Shown here in pieces: positions 4,066 through 24,705 of a stretch of DNA of 30,116 nt (positions are counted from its first letter, which is position 1; every line of letters begins with the position of its first letter). The notes below the pieces were generated by a model that was not told where the DNA came from, ran no database searches, and was given only the letters and a program-made list of their open reading frames with translations. Source of the DNA: a virus; IMG/VR virus record IMGVR_UViG_3300042465_003308, positions 1 to 30,116 of that record; one strand, written 5' to 3'. The translations under genes and the position numbers were made by a program.

Positions 4066-5415
4066 ATGGCCCCGCGCAAGACCCTACAACAAGAGGCTAT
4101 GGAAGCTGGTGAACGGAATGTGGTGCCGGGGCAATCTTGGCTGACCGCGCTTATTCGCGGTATTGGTCGGGAGATGCAAGGTTCGCAAGGAACGCCTTTC
4201 GGACAGGCGACACGCGAAGAGCTTGGATCGCTTGGTTATGAACAAATGCTCCGGGAACAATTCCCAGAGGAGTTTGCTAGAGGGCGTTTGTATGGCTCGG
4301 AAATGTTTCCGACCGACATTGCTTCGTTTTACGCTGCGCGCCCGGGTAGATCGACTTTTGCGCCCGCAATGATGGCTGCGGAAGGCCGGTCGGCCCCTAT
4401 GGCCCTCGAGGCTCCTGCGGCCCGTTTGGCATATACCCCGGTTGCGGAAGCGCCGGTTGCGGCTGCGCCAAGAGGATCGTTTGACGCAAATATGATGGCG
4501 GCTTTTCGTCGGGGTGAAGTTGGGTCACGGCCAGCTGGTCGCCCACAGGCTTACCGTCCGGAAGACTTTTTAGCCATCGAGCAAGGTCCATTTGCACAAA
4601 GCCCGAACGCTTTTGAGGGCAACATGGTGTTGGCGCAACGTCGCGGAATGCCGAGCCCGTCACCTGCAAACTATGATTATCAAGGCCCTGCTACTCCAGG
4701 CCCTGTTACTAATCGACCTGTAAGCGGGTTTGATCGGAACATGCTGGATTGGGCAAGATCCGGACGCACACCTCCGGGCCGCACTGGCGCATTTCGTCCA
4801 GAAGACTTTGCGCCTTATAGCCCAGAAGAAATGGGGCAAGGCGTGGCGCTGCGGGGCCAAACAATGCCGATGGCTCAACGGGGCGGTGTTCCTGCCGTTC
4901 GCAGCGGCTTGCCAACTTTTGCTCAGAACGAGGGCATTCCTTATGGCGAATTCCGCGATGTGACGGGTAATGTGCTGACAGGCCCGGCAGAGGCTGCGGC
5001 TGCGAGAGGTGGCATTCCTTACGGTAAAATTGCAGCTGGCATGGCGGGCGTTGGTTTGCCGATGATGGCTGCGTATTACGGTGGTGGGCAATATCCAGAA
5101 GCTGGAGTTCCAGCCATGGACACAACTCGCGGCGCACAACCACTTCCGCCGATTGATATTTATGGGCGACAAGCGCCGATGAATGGTGTGATGGCTGCAC
5201 AGGCAACACCTAGAAGTGCGCCGGGAGCAAAAACTGCGCGGGCCGGACAGAAGGCTGCACCGATGCCTCCGAGACGGCCAGAGGCAGCGGCTGAACCTGC
5301 GTGGGAAGGTAACATAAATTACCATGTTACCCGCGCGATTGATGCGCTTTTAGGGCAGAATGAAGCGGAACGCGGTCGGCAATACCAGCAGTATTACGAA
5401 CAAAATCCGTATTAA
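4066..5415 (+). CDS. Pro/Ala/Gly-rich virion-operon protein with internal repeats, unknown function
   Basis: 449 residues with no family I recognise. The middle third carries three degenerate repeats: SFDANMMAAFRRG, AFEGNMVLAQRRG and GFDRNMLDWARSG. Two of them are followed by a second element, YRPEDF and FRPEDF. Residues about 325-345 (IAAGMAGVGLPMMAAYYGGG) are Gly/Ala-rich and weakly hydrophobic. The C-terminal part is Pro-rich and includes a PLPPIDIYG motif that recurs in the next gene. Its ATG abuts the portal stop. Proteins at this place, between portal and scaffold, can be internal or assembly proteins. The low-complexity composition fits a flexible internal protein, but this is inference. 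Confidence 0.8.
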   Translation: MAPRKTLQQEAMEAGERNVVPGQSWLTALIRGIGREMQGSQGTPFGQATREELGSLGYEQMLREQFPEEFARGRLYGSEMFPTDIASFYAARPGRSTFAPAMMAAEGRSAPMALEAPAARLAYTPVAEAPVAAAPRGSFDANMMAAFRRGEVGSRPAGRPQAYRPEDFLAIEQGPFAQSPNAFEGNMVLAQRRGMPSPSPANYDYQGPATPGPVTNRPVSGFDRNMLDWARSGRTPPGRTGAFRPEDFAPYSPEEMGQGVALRGQTMPMAQRGGVPAVRSGLPTFAQNEGIPYGEFRDVTGNVLTGPAEAAAARGGIPYGKIAAGMAGVGLPMMAAYYGGGQYPEAGVPAMDTTRGAQPLPPIDIYGRQAPMNGVMAAQATPRSAPGAKTARAGQKAAPMPPRRPEAAAEPAWEGNINYHVTRAIDALLGQNEAERGRQYQQYYEQNPY

Positions 5416-5425
5416 GGGGCACGAT

Positions 5426-6097
5426 ATGGCGGGAGTTCAATACAATTACGAGCCAATTGATCCTCATGCGATTGCGGATTACTTGAACCGTGATTATTAC
5501 AACCCTGCCCCACAAGGCGGCATTCCGCTGCCTCCACGCCGACCCATCGACACCTACGGACACGGCGGGGCCGATCTGCAGTATAGCCCCGCAGATCAAC
5601 GTGCCTTGAATGCTGCGTATCGGGCGCAAAGTTGGGATGAACAGGGGCGGAATTTGGTGCCTGCGGCTATGCAGGCCTACGTTGGAACGCGGTTGTATCC
5701 TGACGAATATCAAGAAATTACGCAAAGAAATTTTGGGCCGTCCGAAACAAATGCGCTTCGTCAAGAGTTTGATCGCCGAGCCTCGAACTATTACACAGGT
5801 GGTTTTGGGGCTAACCCGCTGCAAGGATTTCAACGGGGGCGTATTCCGGATGTAAGTCAATTCGTGCCGTATGATCCGGCTAATGTTCAGCATGTATCGC
5901 CGTATGTGCAATATTCACAAACCGTTGTGCCGGATGTGCGGATGTCTGGACCGGAAAGTATGTTTCAAGGCATTGCTCCTTTTACGAGGGGTGCGTATTA
6001 CAAAGAAACGCCAGAGGGCATAAGGATGAGGAACACCTATACCTCTCCTTTTGGGCAAAGAGATATTAATGTGTTGTTACCTATGGAGCCAAGATGA
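5426..6097 (+). CDS. Unknown late-operon protein, Tyr/Pro-rich N-terminus
   Basis: I chose ATG 5426 (223 aa) because AAGGGG lies just before it; an upstream in-frame ATG at 5360 would overlap the previous gene and has no ribosome site. The N-terminal 60 residues are rich in Tyr, Asn and Pro and include PLPPRRPIDTYG, which echoes PLPP-ID-YG in the protein encoded just upstream. The rest looks like a mixed globular protein without a known signature. The 3' end overlaps the next gene by 4 nt (ATGA). It is probably a virion or assembly protein by position; no homologous family is recognised. Confidence 0.78.
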   Translation: MAGVQYNYEPIDPHAIADYLNRDYYNPAPQGGIPLPPRRPIDTYGHGGADLQYSPADQRALNAAYRAQSWDEQGRNLVPAAMQAYVGTRLYPDEYQEITQRNFGPSETNALRQEFDRRASNYYTGGFGANPLQGFQRGRIPDVSQFVPYDPANVQHVSPYVQYSQTVVPDVRMSGPESMFQGIAPFTRGAYYKETPEGIRMRNTYTSPFGQRDINVLLPMEPR

Positions 6098-6423
6098 GAG
6101 AGCCTTTGATTAAACTCCCCGGAAAAGGGGCACATGCGCATAAAATGGTAGCCGAAACTGCGCAAAAGATGGCGGAAGAAGTGTATGAAAGCTGGGCGTC
6201 TAAGAGCGACCAATTTTATGCCGAGCATCGGGACCTCAAAACCTACGTAAAGTCTTGTTGGCCTTTGTATTTAGATGCCGCTAGAGCCACTCTGGCTCAA
6301 TTGTTGACAACAAATATCGCTGATACCTTGAAAGATCAGATCCACGATGCTTTAGTGAAAGACGCGACATTACGTCGAGGGCGTGAGGGCGTCCTTCAAA
6401 TGAAGAAGGGTAAAGGAGCCTAA
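6094..6423 (+). CDS. Small helical protein upstream of scaffold, unknown function
   Basis: 109 residues, mostly predicted helix, with acidic and basic residues alternating (for example AETAQKMAEEVYESWASKS). The C-terminus is strongly basic (MKKGKGA). The start overlaps the preceding stop as ATGA and the stop lies 1 nt before the scaffold ATG. There is no membrane segment or known motif. It is part of the head-assembly operon, so a head-related role is likely, but I cannot name it. Confidence 0.75.
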   Translation: MREPLIKLPGKGAHAHKMVAETAQKMAEEVYESWASKSDQFYAEHRDLKTYVKSCWPLYLDAARATLAQLLTTNIADTLKDQIHDALVKDATLRRGREGVLQMKKGKGA

Positions 6424-6424
6424 T

Positions 6425-7201
6425 ATGAAAACATTTTACGAAACTATTTTGCGACAAGCTGAAGGGGCGGCAGAGGCTGCACCTGCTGAAGCGCCTGTTG
6501 CTGCCCCACCTCCTGTTGACGAGGCACCTGCACCAGCAAGTGTTGAAGGGGAAGGAGAGGCTCTCGGTAAGGCCTCTCCGTCTCCTTCAGATAGTGAGTC
6601 ACGCCCACCACAGGGCCTTTTAGATCGTATTGGCCAGTTGACTCGTCAAAAGCGTGAGCTTGAAGAACGACTGCAAGCGATGGAAGCTCCGCAGCAGCAG
6701 TATTACGACGCGCCGCAGGCAGCAGGCAGCGTTGATCCGAAACAAATCCAGATGGAGATTTATCGTCAGGCGCAAGAACTGGCGAAACAGAATGAATGGA
6801 AGAATACAACTGACAAGATTTGGAATGAAGGGCTTAGTAAGTATGGCGATTGGGCCCCGCAGTTAAATAATATGGCTCAGATTTTGGGCGGTATTCCTAC
6901 GACCTTGACAGAGGCTGCTATTGAAAGTGGTGCCCCGCATGAGGTATTATACCATTTGGCTAAGAATGTTGATGAAGCTGCCAGAATTGCGCTCCTTCCA
7001 CCCACAAGACAGGCTGTGGCGGTTGCAAAGTTGGCGCAAAACGTCAGCGCACCACGAAAGGTAACGTCGGCTCCTCCGCCGATTTCACCAAAGGTGCAAG
7101 GAATTGGAAGTGCTCCGGCGTCACTCGACGATCCGAACATTTCCATGGAAGAATGGGCGAGACTTCGCAATGAACAAGCGATGAACCGCCGAAGAAGGTA
7201 G
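6425..7201 (+). CDS. Scaffolding protein (putative)
   Basis: 258 residues. Assigned from position directly before the coat gene and from composition. It has an extended Ala/Pro/Glu-rich N-terminus (about 12-45), a charged coiled-coil segment (about 63-90, with LTRQKRELEERLQAM), a helical centre, and a short arginine-rich C-terminus (NEQAMNRRRR). In P22 the scaffold gp8 binds coat through a small basic C-terminal helix-turn-helix, so the basic tail here fits. The protein would template procapsid assembly and leave before or during packaging. It starts after GGTAAAGGAGCC, a strong ribosome site. No sequence signature proves the family. Confidence 0.75.
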   Translation: MKTFYETILRQAEGAAEAAPAEAPVAAPPPVDEAPAPASVEGEGEALGKASPSPSDSESRPPQGLLDRIGQLTRQKRELEERLQAMEAPQQQYYDAPQAAGSVDPKQIQMEIYRQAQELAKQNEWKNTTDKIWNEGLSKYGDWAPQLNNMAQILGGIPTTLTEAAIESGAPHEVLYHLAKNVDEAARIALLPPTRQAVAVAKLAQNVSAPRKVTSAPPPISPKVQGIGSAPASLDDPNISMEEWARLRNEQAMNRRRR

Positions 7202-7358
7202 GTGAGGGGCCTTAAACCCTCTCCCTTTCTGGTCGCAGGGTTAGCGATCTGGGTTGCCTGACAAGAGACGGTCGCAGGCTCCGTCAAAGAAGCAAGGGAC
7301 TCCCCTTGGATTTTGGCATTAGCGAAGCGCATGGTGCGCTCAACCCAAAGGACGAAAG
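7202..7358 (+). promoter_or_regulatory. Structured 157-nt leader before the major coat gene
   Basis: This is the only sizeable non-coding gap in the late operon, where most genes touch or overlap. Reading along the + strand there are four short perfect inverted repeats: GAGGG 7204-7208 with CCCTC 7217-7221, GACGG 7267-7271 with CCGTC 7281-7285, CAAGGG 7293-7298 with CCCTTG 7303-7308, and AGCGCA 7326-7331 with TGCGCT 7335-7340. A 9-bp direct repeat GGTCGCAGG lies at 7231-7239 and 7270-7278. The gap ends in AAAGGACGAAAG just before the coat ATG, a good ribosome site. I see no clear sigma70 promoter. A leader that raises stability or translation of coat mRNA is the simplest reading. Confidence 0.55.
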
Positions 7359-8570
7359 ATGTCTAATACACTCTTAACTATTAACATGATCACACGCGAA
7401 GCTGTTCGCTTGTGGGTCAACACCAACTCCTTCCTACAGCACATCGACACGCAGTATGATGACCAGTTTGCCGTAACCGGCGCGAAAATTGGCCAGTCAT
7501 TGCGCGTCCGTCTGCCGAACGATTACACCGTCCGGACCGGTCCTGTAGCTCAGATCCAAGATACGGCGGAAACCAGCACCACGCTGACCCTCGCCACGCA
7601 GAAGGGCGTTGACGTTTCGTTCAACTCCGTCGAGCGCACGATGTCTTTGGACGACTATTCGAAGCGTATCCTTGCTCCTGCCGTCAACAACCTTGTTGGT
7701 GCAGTTGCAGCTGACGTTATGTCAGGCGCTGAACCTGGCGTTTCAAACCTTGTCGGCAACTTCGACGCTGCCGGTAACTTGCTGAAACCAACGCTCGAGA
7801 CGTTCTTGAACGCGAAGGCGCTGTTGAGCTTACGTTCGGCTCCAACCGACAGCCGTAAGTTCATCCTCGATCCTGTCACGATGGCAAGAACAGTTCAGAA
7901 CTTAACTGGCCTGTTAAACCCAGCGACAGAGATTTCTGAGCAGTATCGCAAGGGTGAAGTTTATAACGCAATCGGCTTCGACTGGTTCGAAGACCAGACC
8001 GTTATTAAGCACACGACCGGCGCTTACTCGTCACCAACGGTTAATGGTGGTAGTCAGACCGGCACGACCCTTGTGGTCAATGCGCTGTCCGGCCCGCTTA
8101 ACCAAGGCGACATCATCACAATCGCTGGCGTGAACGCGGTCAACCGCATCACCAAAGTGACAACGGGCCAGTTACAGCAATTCGTTGTAACCACGACCGC
8201 TGCCGCTGGTGCAACAAGCCTCTCCATCTATCCTGCAATCGTGCCTCCTTCCGGTGGTTCGCAAGTGCAGTATCAGACGGTTGATGCGTCACCTGCTAAC
8301 GGCGCTGCGATCATCCCGCTGACGTTGGCTTCCAGCGTTTACCGCAAAAACCTCGCGTTCTGCCCAGATGCAGTCACGATGGCGACAGCCGATCTTGAAC
8401 TGCCTAAGAACATGCAGGAAACCGCGCGTGAGCGTATGGACGGCGTGTCAATGCGTATGGTGACTGGCTTCGACATTAAGTCGGATCAGTTCATCACCCG
8501 TCTTGACGTTCTTTACGGTTACGTTTGGGTTCGTCCTGAGTGGGCCGTTGTCGTCGCCGACATCATCTAA
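7359..8570 (+). CDS. Major capsid protein, P22 coat (gp5)-like
   Basis: 403 residues against 430 in P22 gp5. The N-terminus (LLTINMITREAVRLWVNTN) and the following QSLRVRLPNDYTVRTG and DVSFNSVERTMSLDDYSKR segments are typical of the P22 coat family with an HK97 fold. A beta-rich block around residues 220-320 (SPTVNGGSQTGTTLVV onward) sits where P22 coat has its telokin-like insertion domain. The protein forms the icosahedral shell around scaffold and portal. Codons in this gene end in C more often than in the neighbours, consistent with very high expression. It is preceded by a structured leader and followed by a strong hairpin. Confidence 0.93.
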   Translation: MSNTLLTINMITREAVRLWVNTNSFLQHIDTQYDDQFAVTGAKIGQSLRVRLPNDYTVRTGPVAQIQDTAETSTTLTLATQKGVDVSFNSVERTMSLDDYSKRILAPAVNNLVGAVAADVMSGAEPGVSNLVGNFDAAGNLLKPTLETFLNAKALLSLRSAPTDSRKFILDPVTMARTVQNLTGLLNPATEISEQYRKGEVYNAIGFDWFEDQTVIKHTTGAYSSPTVNGGSQTGTTLVVNALSGPLNQGDIITIAGVNAVNRITKVTTGQLQQFVVTTTAAAGATSLSIYPAIVPPSGGSQVQYQTVDASPANGAAIIPLTLASSVYRKNLAFCPDAVTMATADLELPKNMQETARERMDGVSMRMVTGFDIKSDQFITRLDVLYGYVWVRPEWAVVVADII

Positions 8571-16447: not shown

Positions 16448-18168
16448 TGAAAAAAGTTACCGCAGGGCTTACCGCCCTTTTGCTGTCCACAACGTCTTTG
16501 CAATCTGCTACGCTTTTGCCAAACGGCCAGCAGCAATTCATAAGCGGCAGCGGTGTTCCGTATGCCAGTGGCAAAGTTTTTTTCTATTCAAACTATCCAA
16601 CGTGTTCGATTTTGAAAAATACTTGGTCGGATAGTGCCGGATCAGTTCTTAATACCAATCCTGTGATTTTGGACTCCGCCGGTCGTGCGACAATCTTTGG
16701 CACAGGCGGCTATTGCCAAGTTTTAAAAGACTCTAATGATAATACAGTCTGGACAAAATACACATCCGATACTTCTTCTGCATCGAACTTAGGATGGGGA
16801 GGAACTTCTAGCGGCACAGCTAACGCCCAAACCCTTTCTGTCTCCACGTTCACGCAATTAGATGGCCAAACGCTTTACTTTATCGCTGGCACAACAAACA
16901 CAGCATCTATGACGTTGAATGTGAATAGCACAGGCGCTGCAGCTGTTGTGAAAACAAATGGCACAACTACATCGTTTTTAACAGGCTTTGAAGTTGTTGC
17001 AGGTAGTGTTATTGGCGTGACATATGTTGCCGCGACAGGTCAATTCCAACTCATAACCAATCCAAGTGTGCAGCCTCCGGGCGAGGTCGCGTCATTTGCA
17101 ATGAATACTTGTCCAGCTGGATGGCTTGCTGCAGATGGCACCGCATATTCTCGCTCAACATACGCCGGACTTTTCGGAAAGATCAGCACAACATGGGGAA
17201 CAGGTGACGGCTCTACAACATTTAACGTGCCGGACTTTAGAGGATCTTTTCTACGAGGATGGGATAACGGCAGAGGATTTGATACAACATTATCTGGCGG
17301 CGTTGTTACATCTGGTAGCAGTTCTATTACAGGATTAGCTTCTACAGCGTTCATGTATGTTGGTATGCCTGTATCCGGCACTGGTATTCCAAGTAATACA
17401 GTCGTAGGGGCCATCAATTCCTCAACATCGATTACGCTTGGCCAAGCATCTTCTCCTACCACTCCTGTAAATGCTACTGTTACATCTGGTATTTTGTCAG
17501 GCACCACATCACTTGGTAGTAATACCATAACAGGGCTTTCAAGCACTACAGGTCTTACGGTAGGACAAGGCGTTTCTGGCACCGGTATTTTATCTGGAAC
17601 TGTAATCACATCGATAAATAGCACGACACAAATTTCAGTTGGTTTGCCATTAACAGGGAATACTTCAGCAGGTGGAACAACTATAACTGGATTGTCGAGC
17701 ACGACAGGAATGGTTGCTGGCCAATTTATATCGGGTCCAAATATATATGCTGGAACAACTATTTCTTCTATTACAAACTCCACAACTATAGTTATATCGA
17801 TAGGGGCGATTGCTACTGCAACTGCTACCTCTTTATCATTTGGTCCGACAGCAAGTGGCACGAACAACATGACATTTGCTTCCGCTACAACTCCTCTTAC
17901 ATTTACAGGTAGAGCTTTCGCCAGTTATCAATCAGATCAATACGCAAATCATAACCACAGCACAACAGAAGCTGCGCACAATCATGGTATTTCAGCCATC
18001 GGTATGAATGGTGGATCATCAGGCGTTTTTTATACACTAACTACCCCTGCAACCGCTTTTACGAATACTACATCGTCTGTTACAGGATTGTCAGTAGCTA
18101 CTTCCACATCTGGCGGCAATGAAACAAGACCAGAAAACTATTCAGTGTTGTATTGCATTAAGTATTAA
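16444..18168 (+). CDS. Tail fibre with phage collar domain and inserted tandem repeats
   Basis: 574 residues from ATG 16444; a second ATG at 16447 is better spaced from AAGGGG and equally possible. The collar-domain signature is clear: SFAMNTCPAGWLAADG, then FGKISTTWGTGDGSTTFNVP and FRGSFLRGWDNGRG. The end is typical, HNHSTTEAAHNHG (a possible metal-binding His cluster) and ETRPENYSVLYCIKY. Between GRG and the His cluster, roughly 17290-17880, three repeats of about 60 residues are inserted, built on ITGLSSTTG, VSGTGI and ITSINSTT. The N-terminus (MKKVTAGLTALLLSTTSLQSA) looks like a signal peptide, odd for a tail fibre. Probable receptor-binding protein and the last gene of the late operon. 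Confidence 0.82.
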   Translation: MMKKVTAGLTALLLSTTSLQSATLLPNGQQQFISGSGVPYASGKVFFYSNYPTCSILKNTWSDSAGSVLNTNPVILDSAGRATIFGTGGYCQVLKDSNDNTVWTKYTSDTSSASNLGWGGTSSGTANAQTLSVSTFTQLDGQTLYFIAGTTNTASMTLNVNSTGAAAVVKTNGTTTSFLTGFEVVAGSVIGVTYVAATGQFQLITNPSVQPPGEVASFAMNTCPAGWLAADGTAYSRSTYAGLFGKISTTWGTGDGSTTFNVPDFRGSFLRGWDNGRGFDTTLSGGVVTSGSSSITGLASTAFMYVGMPVSGTGIPSNTVVGAINSSTSITLGQASSPTTPVNATVTSGILSGTTSLGSNTITGLSSTTGLTVGQGVSGTGILSGTVITSINSTTQISVGLPLTGNTSAGGTTITGLSSTTGMVAGQFISGPNIYAGTTISSITNSTTIVISIGAIATATATSLSFGPTASGTNNMTFASATTPLTFTGRAFASYQSDQYANHNHSTTEAAHNHGISAIGMNGGSSGVFYTLTTPATAFTNTTSSVTGLSVATSTSGGNETRPENYSVLYCIKY

Positions 18169-18211
18169 GCACATCGAATACTGAGTAGCTAATGGCTCTA
18201 AGGTTTTAGCG
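18169..18211. other. Convergence point of late and early transcription
   Basis: Only 43 nt separate the fibre stop from the stop of the leftward ATPase gene. An imperfect inverted repeat can be drawn: TAGCTAA near 18186-18192 with TTAGGCTA at 18212-18219, one bulge and a long loop. There is no GC-rich stem or long T run in either direction. A weak bidirectional terminator is possible, but read-through with overlapping 3' ends is just as likely. Confidence 0.3.
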
Positions 18212-19402
18212 TTAGGCTAGACCGTGCATGTTGCGGGAACGGGGAATATAACTTTCCGTTCCTGCGACACGCTCAAAGATCCCAGACTTTTCCATTAACG
18301 ATAAAATCTTTTCCGCTTTTTCTGCCGGTGTGCGTTGACACAAAAAGCGCAGGATGAGGGATGAAGCTAAAGGCGCGCGGTGTTTTAAGTAAATCTCAAA
18401 TGAATATTGGAAAGTTTCTTCCATCACTTGATCGTCGGAACGCATAATCATGTCGCGGAAAATTTGCGGCATGAGTTCTTCGATTTCTAAAAGCCATCCT
18501 CTTGCGCGCTCCACATCTTGAAGGCGAATTGCCAACTCTTCCCCTCTCGACATGGCTGCAACCATAGACAATTTAACCGCGAAGATTGTTCCGCGACGGG
18601 GAGTGTAATTGGCGAGCTTTGGGTGGTCAGGAACTGGTGCCCAATTGTCTTTCCGCCATCGTTCCATTTCCGCAATCGCATTCGCATCCCACTTTATCTC
18701 GCCATAGTAGTCGGCAACTTCATCGAGCTTTTTGACAAGCGAAGTTTGTAAGATGTCTTGATTTTTGTATTTGCCGAATAGCGGAACACTTGGCGTGGAT
18801 GATGAATAGACCATAAGCATTCGTGAGGTCCAACCCATCGTCCATGCAGCCTCGGGTAACAACGTGGCAAGAAATCCCGGCTGCGATCCTGTCAAGAGCG
18901 TAGTCATGGGTTTTGGAATGTCGATGGGTTCTTTAAGGCTGTGTCGTCTTTCTTCCCGATAGGAGTCTTTGTGGTCGAATAGTTCATTAATAATGCTCAA
19001 AAAGTTTAAGTCATGCGCATTTAAAAAGACACCGAGTTCTGCTGCGAACACAAACATATGATGATATTCGAGCAGCTTATTGTTTGGCAGCAATACGGAT
19101 CTGTGTGCGCGGGCAAGTGCGTCGATGAAACTTGCAGCCGTCACGCTGTTAGGCGAGATATGATATTTCTTTGTGGCTTTTAGGAGTTGCTCGGCGGGGT
19201 TTATTGCTTGTGATTTGCCGACTCCCGGTGGGGCGACGAGCATGGTATAAAGGTTTGCAAATTGCGGTCCCGCTTTTGTTTGCGTCCAGACGCGCTTTTC
19301 GAGCGCACCGGAGAGCGTTGTGATTGCCGCCCACTTGCGAAAGATTTCCGGCGAAGGCCGTTCTTCTGTGTATGTTAAAAATTGATCGACGAAATCAGCC
19401 AC
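18212..19402 (-). CDS. P-loop ATPase, putative replicative helicase (DUF3987-like)
   Basis: 396 residues. The Walker A is at 58-64 (PPGVGKS) after LYTMLVA. A hydrophobic strand ending in Glu, MFVFAAELGVFL (about 115-126), stands at the Walker B position. TGSQPGFLATLL followed by GWTSRMLMVYSS is the sensor/arginine-finger-like block common in DUF3987 phage ATPases, which are often annotated as helicase or primase-helicase proteins. It is the last gene of the leftward replication operon, 16 nt after the polymerase gene. It probably unwinds DNA for the phage Pol A. No primase zinc finger or TOPRIM is visible, so priming must come from elsewhere. Confidence 0.7.
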   Translation of the reverse strand: MADFVDQFLTYTEERPSPEIFRKWAAITTLSGALEKRVWTQTKAGPQFANLYTMLVAPPGVGKSQAINPAEQLLKATKKYHISPNSVTAASFIDALARAHRSVLLPNNKLLEYHHMFVFAAELGVFLNAHDLNFLSIINELFDHKDSYREERRHSLKEPIDIPKPMTTLLTGSQPGFLATLLPEAAWTMGWTSRMLMVYSSSTPSVPLFGKYKNQDILQTSLVKKLDEVADYYGEIKWDANAIAEMERWRKDNWAPVPDHPKLANYTPRRGTIFAVKLSMVAAMSRGEELAIRLQDVERARGWLLEIEELMPQIFRDMIMRSDDQVMEETFQYSFEIYLKHRAPLASSLILRFLCQRTPAEKAEKILSLMEKSGIFERVAGTESYIPRSRNMHGLA

Positions 19403-19418
19403 GGCGCAAGCGCCTCCC

Positions 19419-20900
19419 TCACAGTTTTTGATTTAATATTGGTGTGCGCTTACGGGGATCTTTGACGTTCTTCCATTTGGCAAGGCCATCTGGGTTGGAG
19501 TTCGCGTCAAAGTTTCCCCAATTCCATCCAACTTTTGCTTCTCCGGGGACGATCAATGTGTGGCCGGAGTGTTCAAACGCGATGTGAAAATGCGAAAGAG
19601 CTTCTTCGATAATCGCAACTTCGTCTTCTGTCTCGCGGTATTGAAAGTAAAGAGCGTCGTGAACTTGGGCTATGAGCTGCACCTGCGGCATGTGATACCA
19701 AACGCGCCAGAGGACGAGGTTTAACCTATCCGCCGTCGCGCTCTGCGGTGAGAACGCAATCGCTTCCCGGAGCGTCGTGTCGTCGTTCGAACGTCCGAAG
19801 AAGGTTCGCTGGCGGCCAAAGGGCGTGGTGATGCTGTGGGTTGTTTGGAGTTGTCCTGCAACCCATCGGTGCCATTTTGGAATTCCTGCGAACCGTTCGA
19901 AGTAGGCTCGTTGGAAATGTTCTGCTGTGGCGGTTGGGATTTTGGCGTGTCTTGCCATTGTTGGGGGAAGGCCTCGGTAATTGCTTCCATGGCCGAGCTT
20001 TTTTGCCATATCTCTGTAGGTAAGGTTTCGATAGAAGGGGGTGTCTGCCACGCGGCGATTATGTTTCGGATCGCTGCTCCATTCGAGGGAAGGCCAAGCC
20101 GTTTGTGCAACAAGGGTATGGAGATCACCAGAATAACAGGCGTCAAGGTAAGACCAATCATTACAAATGATCCCAGAAAGCCATCCAACTTCACGGCTTT
20201 CAGCTTGCTCAAGGTCAATGCCACAAATTTTGTAGCCGCGATCTGCGACAAACATTTTCCGCAAAGACGCCGTGATGTTTTGTAAATTCGTGCCAGTCCC
20301 GAAAGCATTTGTTGAGCTACTAAAGCGCCCTGTTTCAGTGCCCGCGACATTGTAAGAGGTTCGCATTCTACCATCTGGATCGACTTCTGTTTTGAGAACT
20401 GAGAGTTGTTTTGTTGCGTCACGGATTGCGAGGATCGTCGCAACCAAAGGTCGAGCGTGATAGTAGTTGTCTAACTTCTCCAGCGCCTCTCGATCCATTG
20501 ATAGTTTTCGTTCGCCTTTTTTGGAGGTCCAGATTTCTGGAATTCGCATGTGTTTGAAGAAGAAGTCTTGAAGCATTTTAGGGGAATTAGCTTTAAGAGG
20601 CTTATCCCAAACAGCATCGGCAAGACGATCCAGAAGGTGTGTAAGACGAACAATCTCATTCGAGAGGTTTTCAATTCCCTTTTGTCTTTCGTATCCATCG
20701 ATCAAAAATCCTCTTGTCATCATGTCGAGAACGGGAGCTTGTAGCGCCCGGGCGAAATCGTAAATCTTTGGAGCTTCGCCGAGCGCACGGATCGAGCCGA
20801 GCACTTCATGCGTAATGCAACAATCCAACCCGTTATAGATTTGCTCGTTTTCTGGAAGCGTTACGCCTTCCTGCAAGGCGCTGGTGTTTATGATGGGCAT
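19419..20900 (-). CDS. Family-A DNA polymerase carrying only the last exonuclease motif
   Basis: 493 residues. It has TETGRFSSS at 188-196, motif A around Asp229 (ICGIDLEQAE), motif B with Arg296, Lys300 and Tyr308 (RDMAKKLGHGSNY), and motif C at 413-416 (VHDA), so all catalytic aspartates are present. His304 stands where Pol I has Phe762, and Ala416 follows the motif C Asp where Glu is usual. The N-terminus is short: only Exo III (YNGLD, Tyr22-Asp26) is present, while Exo I and II lie in the UDG fusion gene upstream. The two chains probably assemble into one proofreading polymerase. The ATG follows the stop of a 38-aa gene by 3 nt, with little Shine-Dalgarno, so coupling is likely. Confidence 0.92.
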   Translation of the reverse strand: MPIINTSALQEGVTLPENEQIYNGLDCCITHEVLGSIRALGEAPKIYDFARALQAPVLDMMTRGFLIDGYERQKGIENLSNEIVRLTHLLDRLADAVWDKPLKANSPKMLQDFFFKHMRIPEIWTSKKGERKLSMDREALEKLDNYYHARPLVATILAIRDATKQLSVLKTEVDPDGRMRTSYNVAGTETGRFSSSTNAFGTGTNLQNITASLRKMFVADRGYKICGIDLEQAESREVGWLSGIICNDWSYLDACYSGDLHTLVAQTAWPSLEWSSDPKHNRRVADTPFYRNLTYRDMAKKLGHGSNYRGLPPTMARHAKIPTATAEHFQRAYFERFAGIPKWHRWVAGQLQTTHSITTPFGRQRTFFGRSNDDTTLREAIAFSPQSATADRLNLVLWRVWYHMPQVQLIAQVHDALYFQYRETEDEVAIIEEALSHFHIAFEHSGHTLIVPGEAKVGWNWGNFDANSNPDGLAKWKNVKDPRKRTPILNQKL

Positions 20901-20903
20901 GGT

Positions 20904-21020
20904 TCACGCGAAGAATAAGAGGAGAGAGGTAAGGACGAGCCAAATACTGAAAGCAAATTCTTGTCCCGTCAGGATGTAATAAATGAATGCTGCGCCCGCA
21001 GCCCCCGCAACTACAAACAT
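20904..21020 (-). CDS. 38-aa membrane peptide between DUF7220 gene and polymerase
   Basis: Reading leftward, ATG at 21020-21018 shares one base with the TAA of the DUF7220 gene (TAATG). The frame ends at TGA 20906-20904, 3 nt before the polymerase ATG. The 38 residues (starting MFVVAGAAGAAFIYYIL, ending LLLFFA) form two hydrophobic helices separated by TGQEFAFS, so a hairpin membrane protein is likely. The exact fit between neighbours and the coupled start support it as a real gene. Function is unknown; it may partner the DUF7220 protein. Confidence 0.65.
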   Translation of the reverse strand: MFVVAGAAGAAFIYYILTGQEFAFSIWLVLTSLLLFFA

Positions 21021-21244
21021 TAAAGCACTCCATTTTCTTGAATGTAATTAAAAATTCGACGCCAGATATAACTGCGAACAATACTAACAAGGGTGAATAT
21101 GCAGGTGATTAGAAAGGTGTCTTTGTGTGTGGTTTGAAAGTTGAAGTAAGCGAATGTTAGCTCTGCGACGAAATAGGAAATTATAAAACCAGAGGCGGTA
21201 TTTAGCAGGGCCTCGAGAAATGAATGTTTGCGGGATTGTGCCAT
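21020..21244 (-). CDS. DUF7220-like small membrane protein
   Basis: 74 residues with the pattern of DUF7220 phage proteins: a charged start (MAQSRKHSFLEALLNTASGF), a first membrane segment (IISYFVAELTFAYFNF), a polar turn (QTTHKDT), a second membrane segment (FLITCIFTLVSIVRSYI) and a basic end (WRRIFNYIQ). The conserved SRxxSFxEAxxNTxxGF and RSYxxRRxF features are what I recall of the family; the function is not known to me. Its ATG directly follows the TAA of the UDG-exonuclease gene and its stop overlaps the next small gene, so it is embedded in the polymerase operon. Confidence 0.78.
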   Translation of the reverse strand: MAQSRKHSFLEALLNTASGFIISYFVAELTFAYFNFQTTHKDTFLITCIFTLVSIVRSYIWRRIFNYIQENGVL

Positions 21245-22303
21245 TTAATCATCCTTCTTCATCTCCGTGATCTTTTTCCCTCTCATCATTTTCCATGCAG
21301 GTTCCTGCGTGTAAACGGAACCCAAGAAGCCTAAGCCTTTTTGCATCTCTGGGTAGAGGGCATGATGATAGAGCATAGTGTCCTCCCGGCATCCGCGCGG
21401 GCGAAAGCCTTCCTTGATAAGGTATTGGAGATCGTAAAGACCGTTCTGGAATATCTTAGTAATGCTCGGATTTTCTAAAATTGCACGAACAATTTTTCTT
21501 GCATCTTTCTCGATGTTCGCTGTCGGCCAATAGTTTCCGCCCTTGTTCTTGTCCCAGAACGGGACCACCATGGCGTGTGTCGGGCTGGCGCTAAAACCAA
21601 CCATTTCAATCATTCCGAATTTAGTCTCGATGTCACAAGCGCATTCAGATTTGAGGTGCTGATCGACCCATTCAAGAGCCTCGGCGATTGTAGGGTTGAC
21701 AAGAATATGGCGCTCTGGGCGTTTGATCTCAGGGAATTCGCTCTCACGCTTCGCTTTGATAAGGTCGGCAATGGCGATAGGTCGCCAAGCCCAATTTCGC
21801 AATACGGCTGCGGGATGGTAGGTGGGCAGAACCTTGTGTGGGACGAGGGAGGATGTCGCAACAGTTCCACGCAAAGCGCCAATGCCATTAGTATGCAGCA
21901 AAGCCCAACAAGCGGTGCTGCCAAGGGCAATAATGAGGTTGGGGGAAACTTGTGTAAGTTCATCCTTTAGCCTCTCGAGTTCTGGAAGGTATTGCGGTTG
22001 TAGGTATTGGCCGATCTTGCCGAGATGGGGGAGGGTATAACCCTCCCCGCAAGCGTCTTTCTTGCAGCACAAAGCTGCGAGGTCATTGTTTGGTGGCCGC
22101 AAGGCTAACACATTCGTCAGAAAGCAATCGCGTCTTGTAAGGCCCGCTTCCTGCAACATTCGTGTTAGCTCTTGCCCGGAATAGCCTTGAAAGGGCTTGC
22201 CGATTAGAGCTTCCTGTTCGCCCCACGCCTCTCCAACGATTGCAATTCGCGCATCGTGAGGGCCAGCACTATGTGCAAAAGCTGGAGAGGTTTGATAGGC
22301 CAT
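21245..22303 (-). CDS. Uracil-DNA glycosylase fused to the first part of a Pol I-type 3'-5' exonuclease
   Basis: 352 residues in two parts. Residues 1-185 are a UDG superfamily domain (family 4/5 type): GEAWGEQE at 24-31, the following FQGYSGQEL, IIALGSTA at 124-131 and HPAAVLRN at 163-170. Cys79, Cys80 and Cys85 are candidates for an Fe-S site. Residues about 198-340 are DnaQ-like: Exo I Asp224/Glu226 (CDIET), Exo II with Asn287 and Asp291 (FQNGLYD), then DTMLYHHALYP and KGLGFLGSVYT. The chain ends at residue 352 before Exo III, which is found on the polymerase gene. It may excise uracil ahead of synthesis and complete the proofreading site in trans. Its ATG lies 1 nt beyond the stop of the MazG-like gene. 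Confidence 0.87.
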   Translation of the reverse strand: MAYQTSPAFAHSAGPHDARIAIVGEAWGEQEALIGKPFQGYSGQELTRMLQEAGLTRRDCFLTNVLALRPPNNDLAALCCKKDACGEGYTLPHLGKIGQYLQPQYLPELERLKDELTQVSPNLIIALGSTACWALLHTNGIGALRGTVATSSLVPHKVLPTYHPAAVLRNWAWRPIAIADLIKAKRESEFPEIKRPERHILVNPTIAEALEWVDQHLKSECACDIETKFGMIEMVGFSASPTHAMVVPFWDKNKGGNYWPTANIEKDARKIVRAILENPSITKIFQNGLYDLQYLIKEGFRPRGCREDTMLYHHALYPEMQKGLGFLGSVYTQEPAWKMMRGKKITEMKKDD

Positions 22304-22304
22304 T

Positions 22305-22766
22305 TTAGTTTTGTTCTTCCGTAACGATTGCTAAAAGCAACAAGCTGTAAACAACGAGATCATCGATGCGGGCAGATACAGGTTCGGTTCTGTTACGGCC
22401 TTTGTTATTGCGAACGTCTTTCACGTATTGCTGAATTGAGTCGATGTGCTTTCCGGCCAGCATCATCCACACCGTTGACATCGGAAGGTCTTGCTGCTGC
22501 GCGAGGCGGCGGAAGTTCGCAAGGATGTCACCGCTATCGCCATACTCAGAGTTCTTTGTGGTGAACAATTGCTCTGCGCGCTTAATTGCGTCTGCGACGA
22601 TTACGACTTGTGGATTGTTGACAGGAGTTGTGTTCACGAGTTTTGGCCTTTCGCTAACAGATTGTGGAGGTGGAGGGGGCGCAAATTCAACGTCTGCAAT
22701 GGTTTTATACATATCCTCAAGATCGACCGGGATCTGGTCAGCTATCGGTCGTGGTGTCTTGTTCAT
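22305..22766 (-). CDS. MazG-like / DUF1599-type nucleotide pyrophosphohydrolase-like protein
   Basis: ATG 22766 (153 aa) is preferred because AAAAGGAG lies 7 nt before it; a longer frame to 22862 would overlap the methyltransferase gene more. Residues 1-55 are Pro-rich and probably disordered (a run of Pro near 30-34). Residues about 57-150 are all-helical with KNSEYGDSGD (71-80), NF at 84-85, Lys106 and RIDDLVVY (133-140). This K-x-x-x-YG ... NF ... K ... R-x-D-D-x-x-x-Y pattern is typical of phage MazG-related proteins that act on (d)NTPs or are linked to nucleotide modification. Substrate is not predictable. It overlaps the ParB-methyltransferase gene by 29 nt. Confidence 0.65.
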   Translation of the reverse strand: MNKTPRPIADQIPVDLEDMYKTIADVEFAPPPPPQSVSERPKLVNTTPVNNPQVVIVADAIKRAEQLFTTKNSEYGDSGDILANFRRLAQQQDLPMSTVWMMLAGKHIDSIQQYVKDVRNNKGRNRTEPVSARIDDLVVYSLLLLAIVTEEQN

Positions 22767-24210
22767 TTGTTTGCTCCTTTTGAGCGCCTTCGGCGCTTTG
22801 CTCCTTTTGTATTGACGATGCTTTGCGGAGAATACGGAATTGCTGCAAAGCTCTTCTCGCATTCCCTACATATTCATCATTGATCTCAAGGCCGAGAACA
22901 TGCGCGGCCCCAAGAGCTTCTGCCGCCCGCAGCGATGACCCACCACCGCATGTCGGGTCGAGCATTCTTGTGTTGTTATCAACGAACATTTGTAAGAAGT
23001 GTTTTAGAACTGGTTCTGGTTTGGTGTGTGGATGAAACTCCTTGTTTGTTTGTGCCGAGATTGCGTTGCTCACAGGTTTGACCAACAAGCGATCTTCTCG
23101 AGATGCGATCAGGGCTGCTTCGTAAATGCGTCTTGGTTCGCGCTTTGGATCTGGCACGATCCCCACATTGTCGCTCTTGACCCAGATTAACGGGAACTTG
23201 CAGAACGCAAGATCGGGAGCGAGATCGGAAAACATTTGCAAGGTGCGATGCTGGATCGTGATGTCGCCGGAAAGCCAGAACACCAAATGCCCGCTGTGCG
23301 CCATGAGGGTGTCAAGGTTGGTGCAGAGGGTGGTGATTAATTGCTCGTAAACATCCACGGTGTCTTTGTATCCAGAGGTCGTTTGTTTGCCCGACCACTT
23401 TCCTCCAAAAACATTCACGCCATACGGAAAGTCACAGTGAATCAAATTGAAAGGCTCGCCTCGGTATGCAGGAGCCCAGTCGAGAAAGGATTGCTGAAGG
23501 ATGGACGTTTCGGGCGGGATGATTAGGGGCGCGGATCGTGCCGATTTCGGTGGCCCGTTGGGGGCCGTAGGAAGGTCAGGGGCATCGGTCAAAAGATCAT
23601 CAAGGGGGTTAGTGCCGCCTTCCCCATTGAAGGCATCCGCCGCCGCTTCCGTCGCAGTCGATAAGATGTTGCTAACCGCATCTGCAGCCACACGCTCGTC
23701 TTCGCGGGATATGAAGTTGTAGGCTCGAGTAGCGGTTTCGAGGGTTCTAATATTATCCCTATGCAATTCCTTCGCTATTCGGCAGCAGCGTTGAACCCAT
23801 GCTTGCCCGTAACCTATTGATGCTGCGGTCTTTGCGTAACCCCATTCCTCTCCCCCTTTTTGGGAAAGGATGTCGTGGATGTTGGCGATGGCCAAACACT
23901 GATCCTGCCAGCCCAAATCTTTCCGGCGCAGATTTTCTTCGAGTTCGACGAGTTTTTGCTCGATGGGGTCAAGGTCGGCCAGAAGGCGCGCGGGAATGTC
24001 AGGAAGATTGAGCTTGCGGGAGGCTGTGAAGCGCCTTTCTCCTGCAAGAAGTTTGTAGGGCTGACCTGCGGGGCCTTGTTCAGAGGTGACAATAATCGGC
24101 ACCAGCACTCCCCGCAACGGAATGCTTTCCAGCAAATCGTCAACAATAATTTCTTTCCGTTGCCGTGAGCCTCGGTCAATCCAAATATCTTTAAGAGCAA
24201 TGCTGGTCAT
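22738..24210 (-). CDS. ParB-domain / DNA methyltransferase fusion
   Basis: 490 residues from ATG 24210, chosen because GAAAGG lies 6 nt upstream and the longer frame would start with TTG. Residues 1-150 are ParB/Srx-like, with the signature LLAGERRFTASRKL at 54-67 and a helical DNA-binding part after it. An acidic, Pro-rich linker (about 190-230) leads to a methyltransferase. Its motif IV is DFPYG at 260-264, HPHTKPEPVL follows near 393-402, and the SAM-binding motif I is DPTCGGGS at 418-425 with GLEINDEYV after it. The order IV then I indicates a beta-class amino-methyltransferase (m6A or m4C); the variant DFPYG leaves the target base open. The tail is Gln/Glu-rich. It could shield phage DNA from restriction. 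Confidence 0.85.
   Translation of the reverse strand: MTSIALKDIWIDRGSRQRKEIIVDDLLESIPLRGVLVPIIVTSEQGPAGQPYKLLAGERRFTASRKLNLPDIPARLLADLDPIEQKLVELEENLRRKDLGWQDQCLAIANIHDILSQKGGEEWGYAKTAASIGYGQAWVQRCCRIAKELHRDNIRTLETATRAYNFISREDERVAADAVSNILSTATEAAADAFNGEGGTNPLDDLLTDAPDLPTAPNGPPKSARSAPLIIPPETSILQQSFLDWAPAYRGEPFNLIHCDFPYGVNVFGGKWSGKQTTSGYKDTVDVYEQLITTLCTNLDTLMAHSGHLVFWLSGDITIQHRTLQMFSDLAPDLAFCKFPLIWVKSDNVGIVPDPKREPRRIYEAALIASREDRLLVKPVSNAISAQTNKEFHPHTKPEPVLKHFLQMFVDNNTRMLDPTCGGGSSLRAAEALGAAHVLGLEINDEYVGNARRALQQFRILRKASSIQKEQSAEGAQKEQTNEQDTTTDS
22770..22808 (-). promoter_or_regulatory. Duplicated Shine-Dalgarno with hairpin before the MazG-like gene
   Basis: On the - strand the 12-mer AAAAGGAGCAAA occurs twice (22808-22797 and 22781-22770). 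The copies flank a perfect 6-bp hairpin, AGCGCC with GGCGCT and a GAA loop (22797-22783). The second copy is the ribosome site for ATG 22766. The whole element lies inside the end of the methyltransferase gene. It may act as ribosome standby or tune coupling; no mechanism is shown. Confidence 0.5.
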
Positions 24211-24270
24211 AACAGGCCTTTCAGAAGTGAATGGAGAGGGCAAAATGGCTCCTCGCCCTCTCCGTGATTG

Positions 24271-24705
24271 TTATTCGCCTTTAACGCTCTTGATGTTGTT
24301 GCGTGGCGGATCATCTGGGCGCTCAGGATTAAAACGCTGAGTCACATAGGCGATCACACTTTGTCCAACAGCTTCTGGGATCAATTCGTCAAAGCTCGAG
24401 CCGTCGGTCTTGAGGCCGAGCGAAACGAGAAACTCTTTGAGTCTCCAACGAGCGTCAGGTGTGAGGTAAAAGTCGGTAGAAAGTTTACGAGATGAAAGAT
24501 CGATGTCAGCAAGGTCTTTGTCGTCAACGTCATCTGATGTGTGGGTGAATTTAAGAGCGAAACGAACGTAAGGAGTTTTGTTTTTGTTGTTATCGCCATA
24601 TTCGAATGATGAAATGTTGCCGTGATAAGTTCCTTCTGGAAGTGCTGATGGTGCTTTTACATCGTCAAGTTTAGTAGATAAGAGGTCTTTAAAGTTCACA
24701 GACAT
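24271..24705 (-). CDS. SSB-like protein of phage recombination module (putative)
   Basis: 144 residues. After a helical start the sequence PEGTYHGNISSFEYG followed by TPYVRFALKFTH gives the strand pattern of the OB-like DUF669-type phage proteins that accompany Sak4-type ATPases and often act as single-strand binding proteins. The C-terminal part contains DFYLTPDARWRLKEFLVSLGL, also typical of that group. It starts after GGAG and lies between the Sak4-like ATPase and the methyltransferase. Location in a recombination module supports ssDNA binding, but there is no acidic SSB tail. Confidence 0.6.
   Translation of the reverse strand: MSVNFKDLLSTKLDDVKAPSALPEGTYHGNISSFEYGDNNKNKTPYVRFALKFTHTSDDVDDKDLADIDLSSRKLSTDFYLTPDARWRLKEFLVSLGLKTDGSSFDELIPEAVGQSVIAYVTQRFNPERPDDPPRNNIKSVKGE

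Follow-up and report, generated by a model that had tools for sequence, protein, structure and literature searches.

Read from its genes, one large phage group, so far almost undescribed, makes its DNA polymerase as two proteins, with the break between them passing through the proofreading active site. The polymerase belongs to family A and is probably the phage replicase. Because the break crosses the proofreading active site, both proteins very probably must join to proofread. We consider it highly probable that this is a two-subunit family-A polymerase whose ancestral chain was broken once and whose two chains assemble into one proofreading site. The ancestral single chain would have had the order uracil-DNA glycosylase (UDG), 3′-5′ exonuclease, polymerase. 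A single break in the loop that leads from a Trp-Lys element downstream of Exo II to the Exo III helix would have given chain 1 (UDG with the Exo I and II motifs) and chain 2 (the Exo III motif with the polymerase), produced from the same operon. On assembly, Asp224, Glu226 and Asp291 of chain 1 would meet Asp26 and Tyr22 of chain 2 in a DnaQ-like site.

The window, i.e., the whole stretch of DNA analysed, is a 30,116-base IMG/VR virus record. It carries a terminase gene and genes for a P22-like portal and coat, together with a replication block that lies on the minus strand, as do all window features given below. Chain 1 (352 aa, 21245..22303) comprises a family-4-like UDG domain (residues ~13-190) and the first part of a DnaQ-like 3′-5′ exonuclease (residues ~196-352), and its ORF ends in ...EPAWKMMRGKKITEMKKDD. 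Chain 2, the Pol A chain (493 aa, 19419..20900), opens with MPIINTSALQEGVTLPENEQIYNGLDCC and comprises the Exo III helix and the thumb-palm-fingers. Exo I (D224-I-E226-T227, 21623..21634) and Exo II (N287-x-x-x-D291, 21431..21445) are encoded in chain 1 and Exo III (Y22-N-G-L-D26, 20823..20837) in chain 2. The next gene (18212..19402) was identified by profile match as DUF3987 / phrog_14296 “DNA primase.” Elsewhere in the window, a single ORF (22738-24243) combines a ParB-like N-terminal domain with a C-terminal DNA methylase domain.

Pfam searches of the UDG-exonuclease protein identified UDG (PF03167, 6e-23) and DNA_pol_A_exo1 (PF01612), the latter aligned at profile positions 58-128 of 173 only, and the second chain matched DNA_pol_A (PF00476, 2e-36). 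Against the PHROGs profile phrog_17 “DNA polymerase,” chain 1 covers positions 477-788 and chain 2 positions 809-1239, and are thus consecutive parts of one profile. The DNA_pol_A domain and the conserved motif A Asp (D229), motif B Arg/Lys (R296/K300) and motif C His-Asp (H414-D415) place the enzyme among the family-A (Pol I-like) polymerases. It departs from the Klenow-like layout, in which exonuclease and polymerase share one polypeptide, as two ORFs are present with two genes between them. All the DnaQ-like exonuclease motifs (Exo I D-x-E, Exo II D and Exo III Y-x-x-x-D) were found, spread over both chains, and neither chain holds a complete site, given the partial PF01612 match of chain 1 and the location of Exo III in chain 2. 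The ORFs, Pfam and phrog_17 matches and motif positions agree with an earlier note on this DNA, which gave the same outer coordinates (19419-22303) and the same distribution of Exo I, II and III over two genes.

A search of viral contigs with the UDG-exonuclease protein returned 72 loci, and nearly all of those reaching the junction are split at the same place. Wider alignment scans recovered at least 185 split loci in a first set, and at least 70 more came from a later fetch that sampled the early-branching group. After removal of near-copies, at least 183 distinct split gene pairs share the break, and these diverge to ~40% identity yet keep it. The cultured example is Caulobacter phage Kuura (genes 029/028/027/026), the only record of the split form seen in searches of 50,697 phage records. 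Kuura_029 has the accession WCD44107.1, is labelled “hypothetical protein” and is the UDG-exonuclease chain; the break is occupied by 028 and 027, and 026, with the accession WCD44104.1, is labelled “DNA polymerase”; the Kuura paper makes no mention of exonuclease or uracil. The same break in at least 183 distinct pairs is therefore neither chance nor an assembly error. With Kuura as a further instance, we rejected assembly error, and the split exonuclease that the earlier note had described is borne out as a real feature.

The earlier note had reasoned that, with neither chain complete, the two products must assemble or proofreading is lost. If it were lost, the Pol A chain would be exonuclease-deficient and the UDG-exonuclease chain a remnant or otherwise employed. 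Such a state is known from divPolA1, a phage family-A polymerase in which all three exonuclease aspartates are replaced (PMC11348598). However, among the 183 distinct split pairs listed here, D224 and E226 are present in all 181 that cover these positions, and N287, D291, Y22 and D26 are present in 183/183, while the UDG residues on the same chain drift. The gene order of UDG-exonuclease, cargo and polymerase is also maintained. Single-chain relatives have the same exonuclease residues, except for one with His in place of Asn at N287. As the exonuclease residues are invariant in both genes, we conclude that both halves are selected for one active site. Of the two outcomes in the earlier note, assembly is thus supported; loss is disfavoured by this invariance and by the Klenow-like model of a relative described below, and we regard it as very unlikely.

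The UDG residues behave differently. In T. thermophilus (Tth) UDG, E41, E47, F54, N80 and H155 have catalytic roles, and by alignment these correspond to E25, E31, F38, N64 and H163 of the window protein, so that its core motifs are intact. Motif A (G24-E-A-W-G-E-Q-E31, 22211..22234), aligned to the T. thermophilus and T. maritima UDGs, is variable across split pairs, as is the His of motif B (H163-P164, 21812..21817), located by alignment. Of the 177 split pairs with a residue at the H163 position, 49 have Ser, Pro, Ala, Asn or Gly instead of His. Both E25 and H163 are lost in 26/183 split pairs, and all 26 keep the exonuclease residues. UDG activity would thus appear to be more dispensable than the proofreading site. 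The loci L197, L201 and L207, with their relatives L294-L371, form the early-branching split group, in which the UDG motifs are degenerate (e.g., VMDFPSSNE for VGEAWGEQE) and the UDG domain and exonuclease residues are still present.

Family 4 UDGs bind an iron-sulphur cluster through four Cys, with ligand positions near the N-terminus. The window protein has the UDG fold and core motifs in common with the family 4 UDGs (T. maritima 1l9g and T. thermophilus 1ui0) and UdgX, but it is fused to half an exonuclease, and no Cys was found in its first 50 residues, where the N-terminal iron-sulphur ligands of family 4 would lie. These features bear on the suggestion, made in the earlier note, that a UDG attached to the polymerase couples uracil removal to copying. 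Taken as the main role of the UDG-exonuclease chain, and hence the reason for the attachment, such coupling fits with the retention of the UDG domain in split chains and with the intact catalytic equivalents in the window copy. It fits poorly with the 26 pairs that have lost the E41 and H155 equivalents while keeping the exonuclease site, with the missing N-terminal cysteines, and with the fact that single-chain UDG-exonuclease-polymerases were already known. Coupling may occur in the window phage, whose UDG motifs are intact, but we give it only a small chance of being the general reason for the arrangement.

Structure models are consistent with the assembly of the two chains. Modelled alone, window chain 1 has a well-predicted UDG domain and first exonuclease part, and its last 44 residues (309-352) have block pLDDT values of 30-41. 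In the related locus L051, the polymerase ORF lies in frame just past the TGA of the UDG-exonuclease gene (L051:2710-2749), and readthrough would fuse the chains. We used this locus as a proxy for the assembled pair, with the TGA read as Trp and the chains of other phages as separate alignment rows. The alignments used for modelling contained no rows from annotated phage records, and the tails of chain 1 and part of the chain-2 N-termini had been cut off in them. The read-through model has a mean pLDDT of 90.2 and a pTM of 0.85. Its residues 291-320, equivalent to the beginning of the stretch that is disordered in the window chain, have block means of 92, 79 and 72, and values drop below 50 in just one segment, residues 324-342, which surrounds the artificial junction. 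The contrast is suggestive of a chain-1 tail that becomes ordered when joined, for two models that differ in query and alignment. In Foldseek comparisons with Klenow, the alignment of the L051 model spans 661 columns and has a TM of 0.76 by target length, versus 155 columns and 0.18 for window chain 1 alone. The joined model shares the exonuclease and polymerase fold with Klenow / E. coli DNA polymerase I, though the latter is one chain and has no UDG. The joined L051 pair is thus predicted to be one Klenow-like enzyme. The earlier note had proposed structure prediction of the two chains as a complex; the outcome for this proxy from a relative is favourable to a joint fold. In combination with the alignments, we infer from these models that the two chains physically assemble and have exonuclease activity.

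Chain 2 begins with an N-terminal extension (residues 1-21, MPIINTS..., 20838..20900) with the motif M-[KRP]-I-I-x-[TN], and 172/174 sequences have T or N at position 6. In split pairs, chain 1 continues for ~13 residues past the Trp-Lys, and chain 2 has roughly 20 or more ahead of the Exo III Tyr; in single-chain relatives the Trp-Lys and this Tyr are ~17 residues apart, without M-x-I-I-x-T. Within the extension, the L051 model has a strand at 346-349. We infer that the extension, a conserved trait of the split lineage that single chains lack, folds as a strand and probably helps to dock the two chains. Covariation between exonuclease columns and the chain-2 N-terminus showed ~twofold enrichment in the top pairs, with a similar mean-score shift in the UDG control.

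The break in the window holds two genes. The first encodes a 74-aa DUF7220 protein (21020..21244; PF23858, 6e-23) and is preceded by AAGGA, and the second is a 38-aa hydrophobic ORF (20904..21020) preceded by GGAG, with relatives in close kin. Both products are predicted, by hydrophobicity, to be membrane proteins. The DUF7220 start is the base right after the UDG-exonuclease stop (TAA, then ATG), the two small genes overlap in TAATG, and the 38-aa ORF is joined to the polymerase gene by TGA-ACC-ATG, with no clear ribosome site seen upstream of the window polymerase start. Given these tight start/stop junctions, the four genes look like a translationally coupled operon.

The same junctions bear on whether an intron, a frameshift or stop-codon readthrough could join the frames into a single chain. 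Phage polymerase genes commonly contain group I introns, which have been suggested for the split polymerase of phages MEP401/402 (PMC10580990), and a few relatives have a gap of -4 to +6 bp, at which the frames could be fused by recoding. Across the split loci, however, gap length varies between -4 and 2805 bp and the contents are unrelated, two tightly joined ORFs occupy the break in the window, and chain 2 begins with a conserved region of its own. No intron family match was found in window positions 18000-24500; given this result and the gaps of a few bp in relatives, we rejected an intron at the break. A joined product is, in our judgement, extremely unlikely.

In the preferred reading, two separate chains leave the break as a tolerated cargo space, which unrelated small genes would have entered repeatedly. 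A DUF3987 match follows the polymerase gene in 149 split loci, and among these, 136 have >150 bp in the break and 25 have >150 bp between polymerase and DUF3987. The gap ORFs form 153 clusters. Matches among the 94 gap ORFs scanned included DUF7768 (26), DUF1937 (15), HNH_3 endonuclease (10) and DUF4406 (10), plus others, where one ORF may match more than one family. The break thus appears to act as a cargo slot. The earlier note was correct that two small genes sit in the break, but instead of being a feature of this phage, the DUF7220 gene and the 38-aa ORF seem to be one of many cargoes in a conserved slot.

Invasion by a homing endonuclease could itself have caused the split, with the slot being a mobile-element insertion site. 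Models for such a slot are mobE in Aeh1 nrdA and the break in T4-type gene 43. The HNH_3 matches counted above are in line with such an origin, as is the difference between close relatives by the insertion of one HNH gene. The T4-type precedent adds to this, with an endonuclease gene inside the gene 43 break in one phage (PMC2988022). Against this, most gaps have no recognisable endonuclease and the HNH genes occupy varying positions in the gap, and for these reasons they may have invaded an existing gap. We therefore hold an endonuclease origin to be possible but somewhat unlikely; it is compatible with the two-subunit explanation. In the close window relatives L006, L008, L015 and L029, HNH-type genes occur at different break positions, on either side of the DUF7220 pair.

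Phylogenetic analysis points to a single origin of the conserved break. In a tree of the exonuclease and polymerase columns, a branch with SH-aLRT 98 separates all 104 split rows from the rest. A second tree included 23 single-chain relatives and omitted the longest branches, and there the branch for 40 split rows has SH-aLRT 97 (both are quick trees without bootstrap). The nearest relatives of the split lineage are single chains; the single-chain UDG-exonuclease-polymerases that the earlier note had proposed to look for in related phages were thus found. One old fission accounts for all members of the split lineage in the trees (support 97-98), and no re-fused member was found inside this lineage among those fetched, mostly with split proteins as queries.

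A scan with single-chain relatives as query added at least 78 newly fetched single chains and one split locus (L276). L276, like L067, falls within the single-chain group, and each was split separately in the loop that is broken in the split lineage. Their junctions (L067:5170-5215, and at the UDG-exonuclease stop in L276) are independent and apparently recent, and lack the M-x-I-I-x-T extension; each is on a single contig, where a sequencing error is possible. Two other relatives, L077 and L079, are broken at other places. The break of L079 (Vibrio phage VS-ABTNL-3, 5662-7090) is inside the polymerase domain and holds a 184-aa ORF, resembling published OM43 phages. Among the single chains, L214 (5005-8268) and the polymerase ORF of L236 (locus 5001-8297) have an intein-like insert in the polymerase domain, which begins C...LTPxGW, ends in Asn and lies near motif B. 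A third candidate for such an insert is L277 (1132 aa).

Parts of this arrangement have known counterparts. Pseudomonas phage PaBG gp205 and its group have a single-chain family-A polymerase with the UDG-exonuclease-polymerase order (PMC7412058). Our searches also matched the solved phiLo polymerase (9qhs), a single chain of the same type for which the literature search found only unrelated work, and exonuclease motifs were seen in the single chains of Microcystis phage Mel-JY34 and Desulfofustis phage LS06-2018-MD01. All of these share the domain order of the split pairs, but their exonuclease is unbroken. Among split polymerases, the OM43 phages MEP401 and MEP402 have a family-A enzyme with a small ORF in the break (PMC10580990); there, as in VS-ABTNL-3, the break is inside the polymerase domain and leaves the exonuclease domain in one chain, whereas here it is in the exonuclease. 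T4-type gene 43 is split into 43A and 43B in Aeromonas phages 25 and 44RR, and the phage 25 halves co-purify as an active polymerase (PMC2988022). As here, a replicative polymerase is made in two chains, but it belongs to family B and is not described as UDG-linked. By analogy with 43A/43B, and with the L051 proxy predicted to fold as one, the window pair may work as a two-subunit polymerase. Our searches of the open-access literature yielded no description of a family-A polymerase in which a split through the exonuclease site is a conserved lineage trait, and nothing specific to this UDG-linked split. Single-chain UDG-exonuclease-polymerases and scattered split phage polymerases are thus already known, and what appears to be new is a lineage-wide break through the proofreading site.

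We give a slim chance to a further possibility, namely that this is an ancient obligate two-subunit enzyme in which chain 2 alone is a working, non-proofreading polymerase. The ratio of the chains could then set the mutation rate, and genes in the break could influence that ratio via translational coupling. The lineage is nearly invisible in annotation: the exonuclease half in Kuura is labelled hypothetical, and annotation thus misses the proofreading half of the enzyme. These phages offer a naturally occurring system for reconstitution, in which one can ask how proofreading communicates with polymerisation, what is gained from a split polymerase, and whether the dosage of proofreading is tunable.
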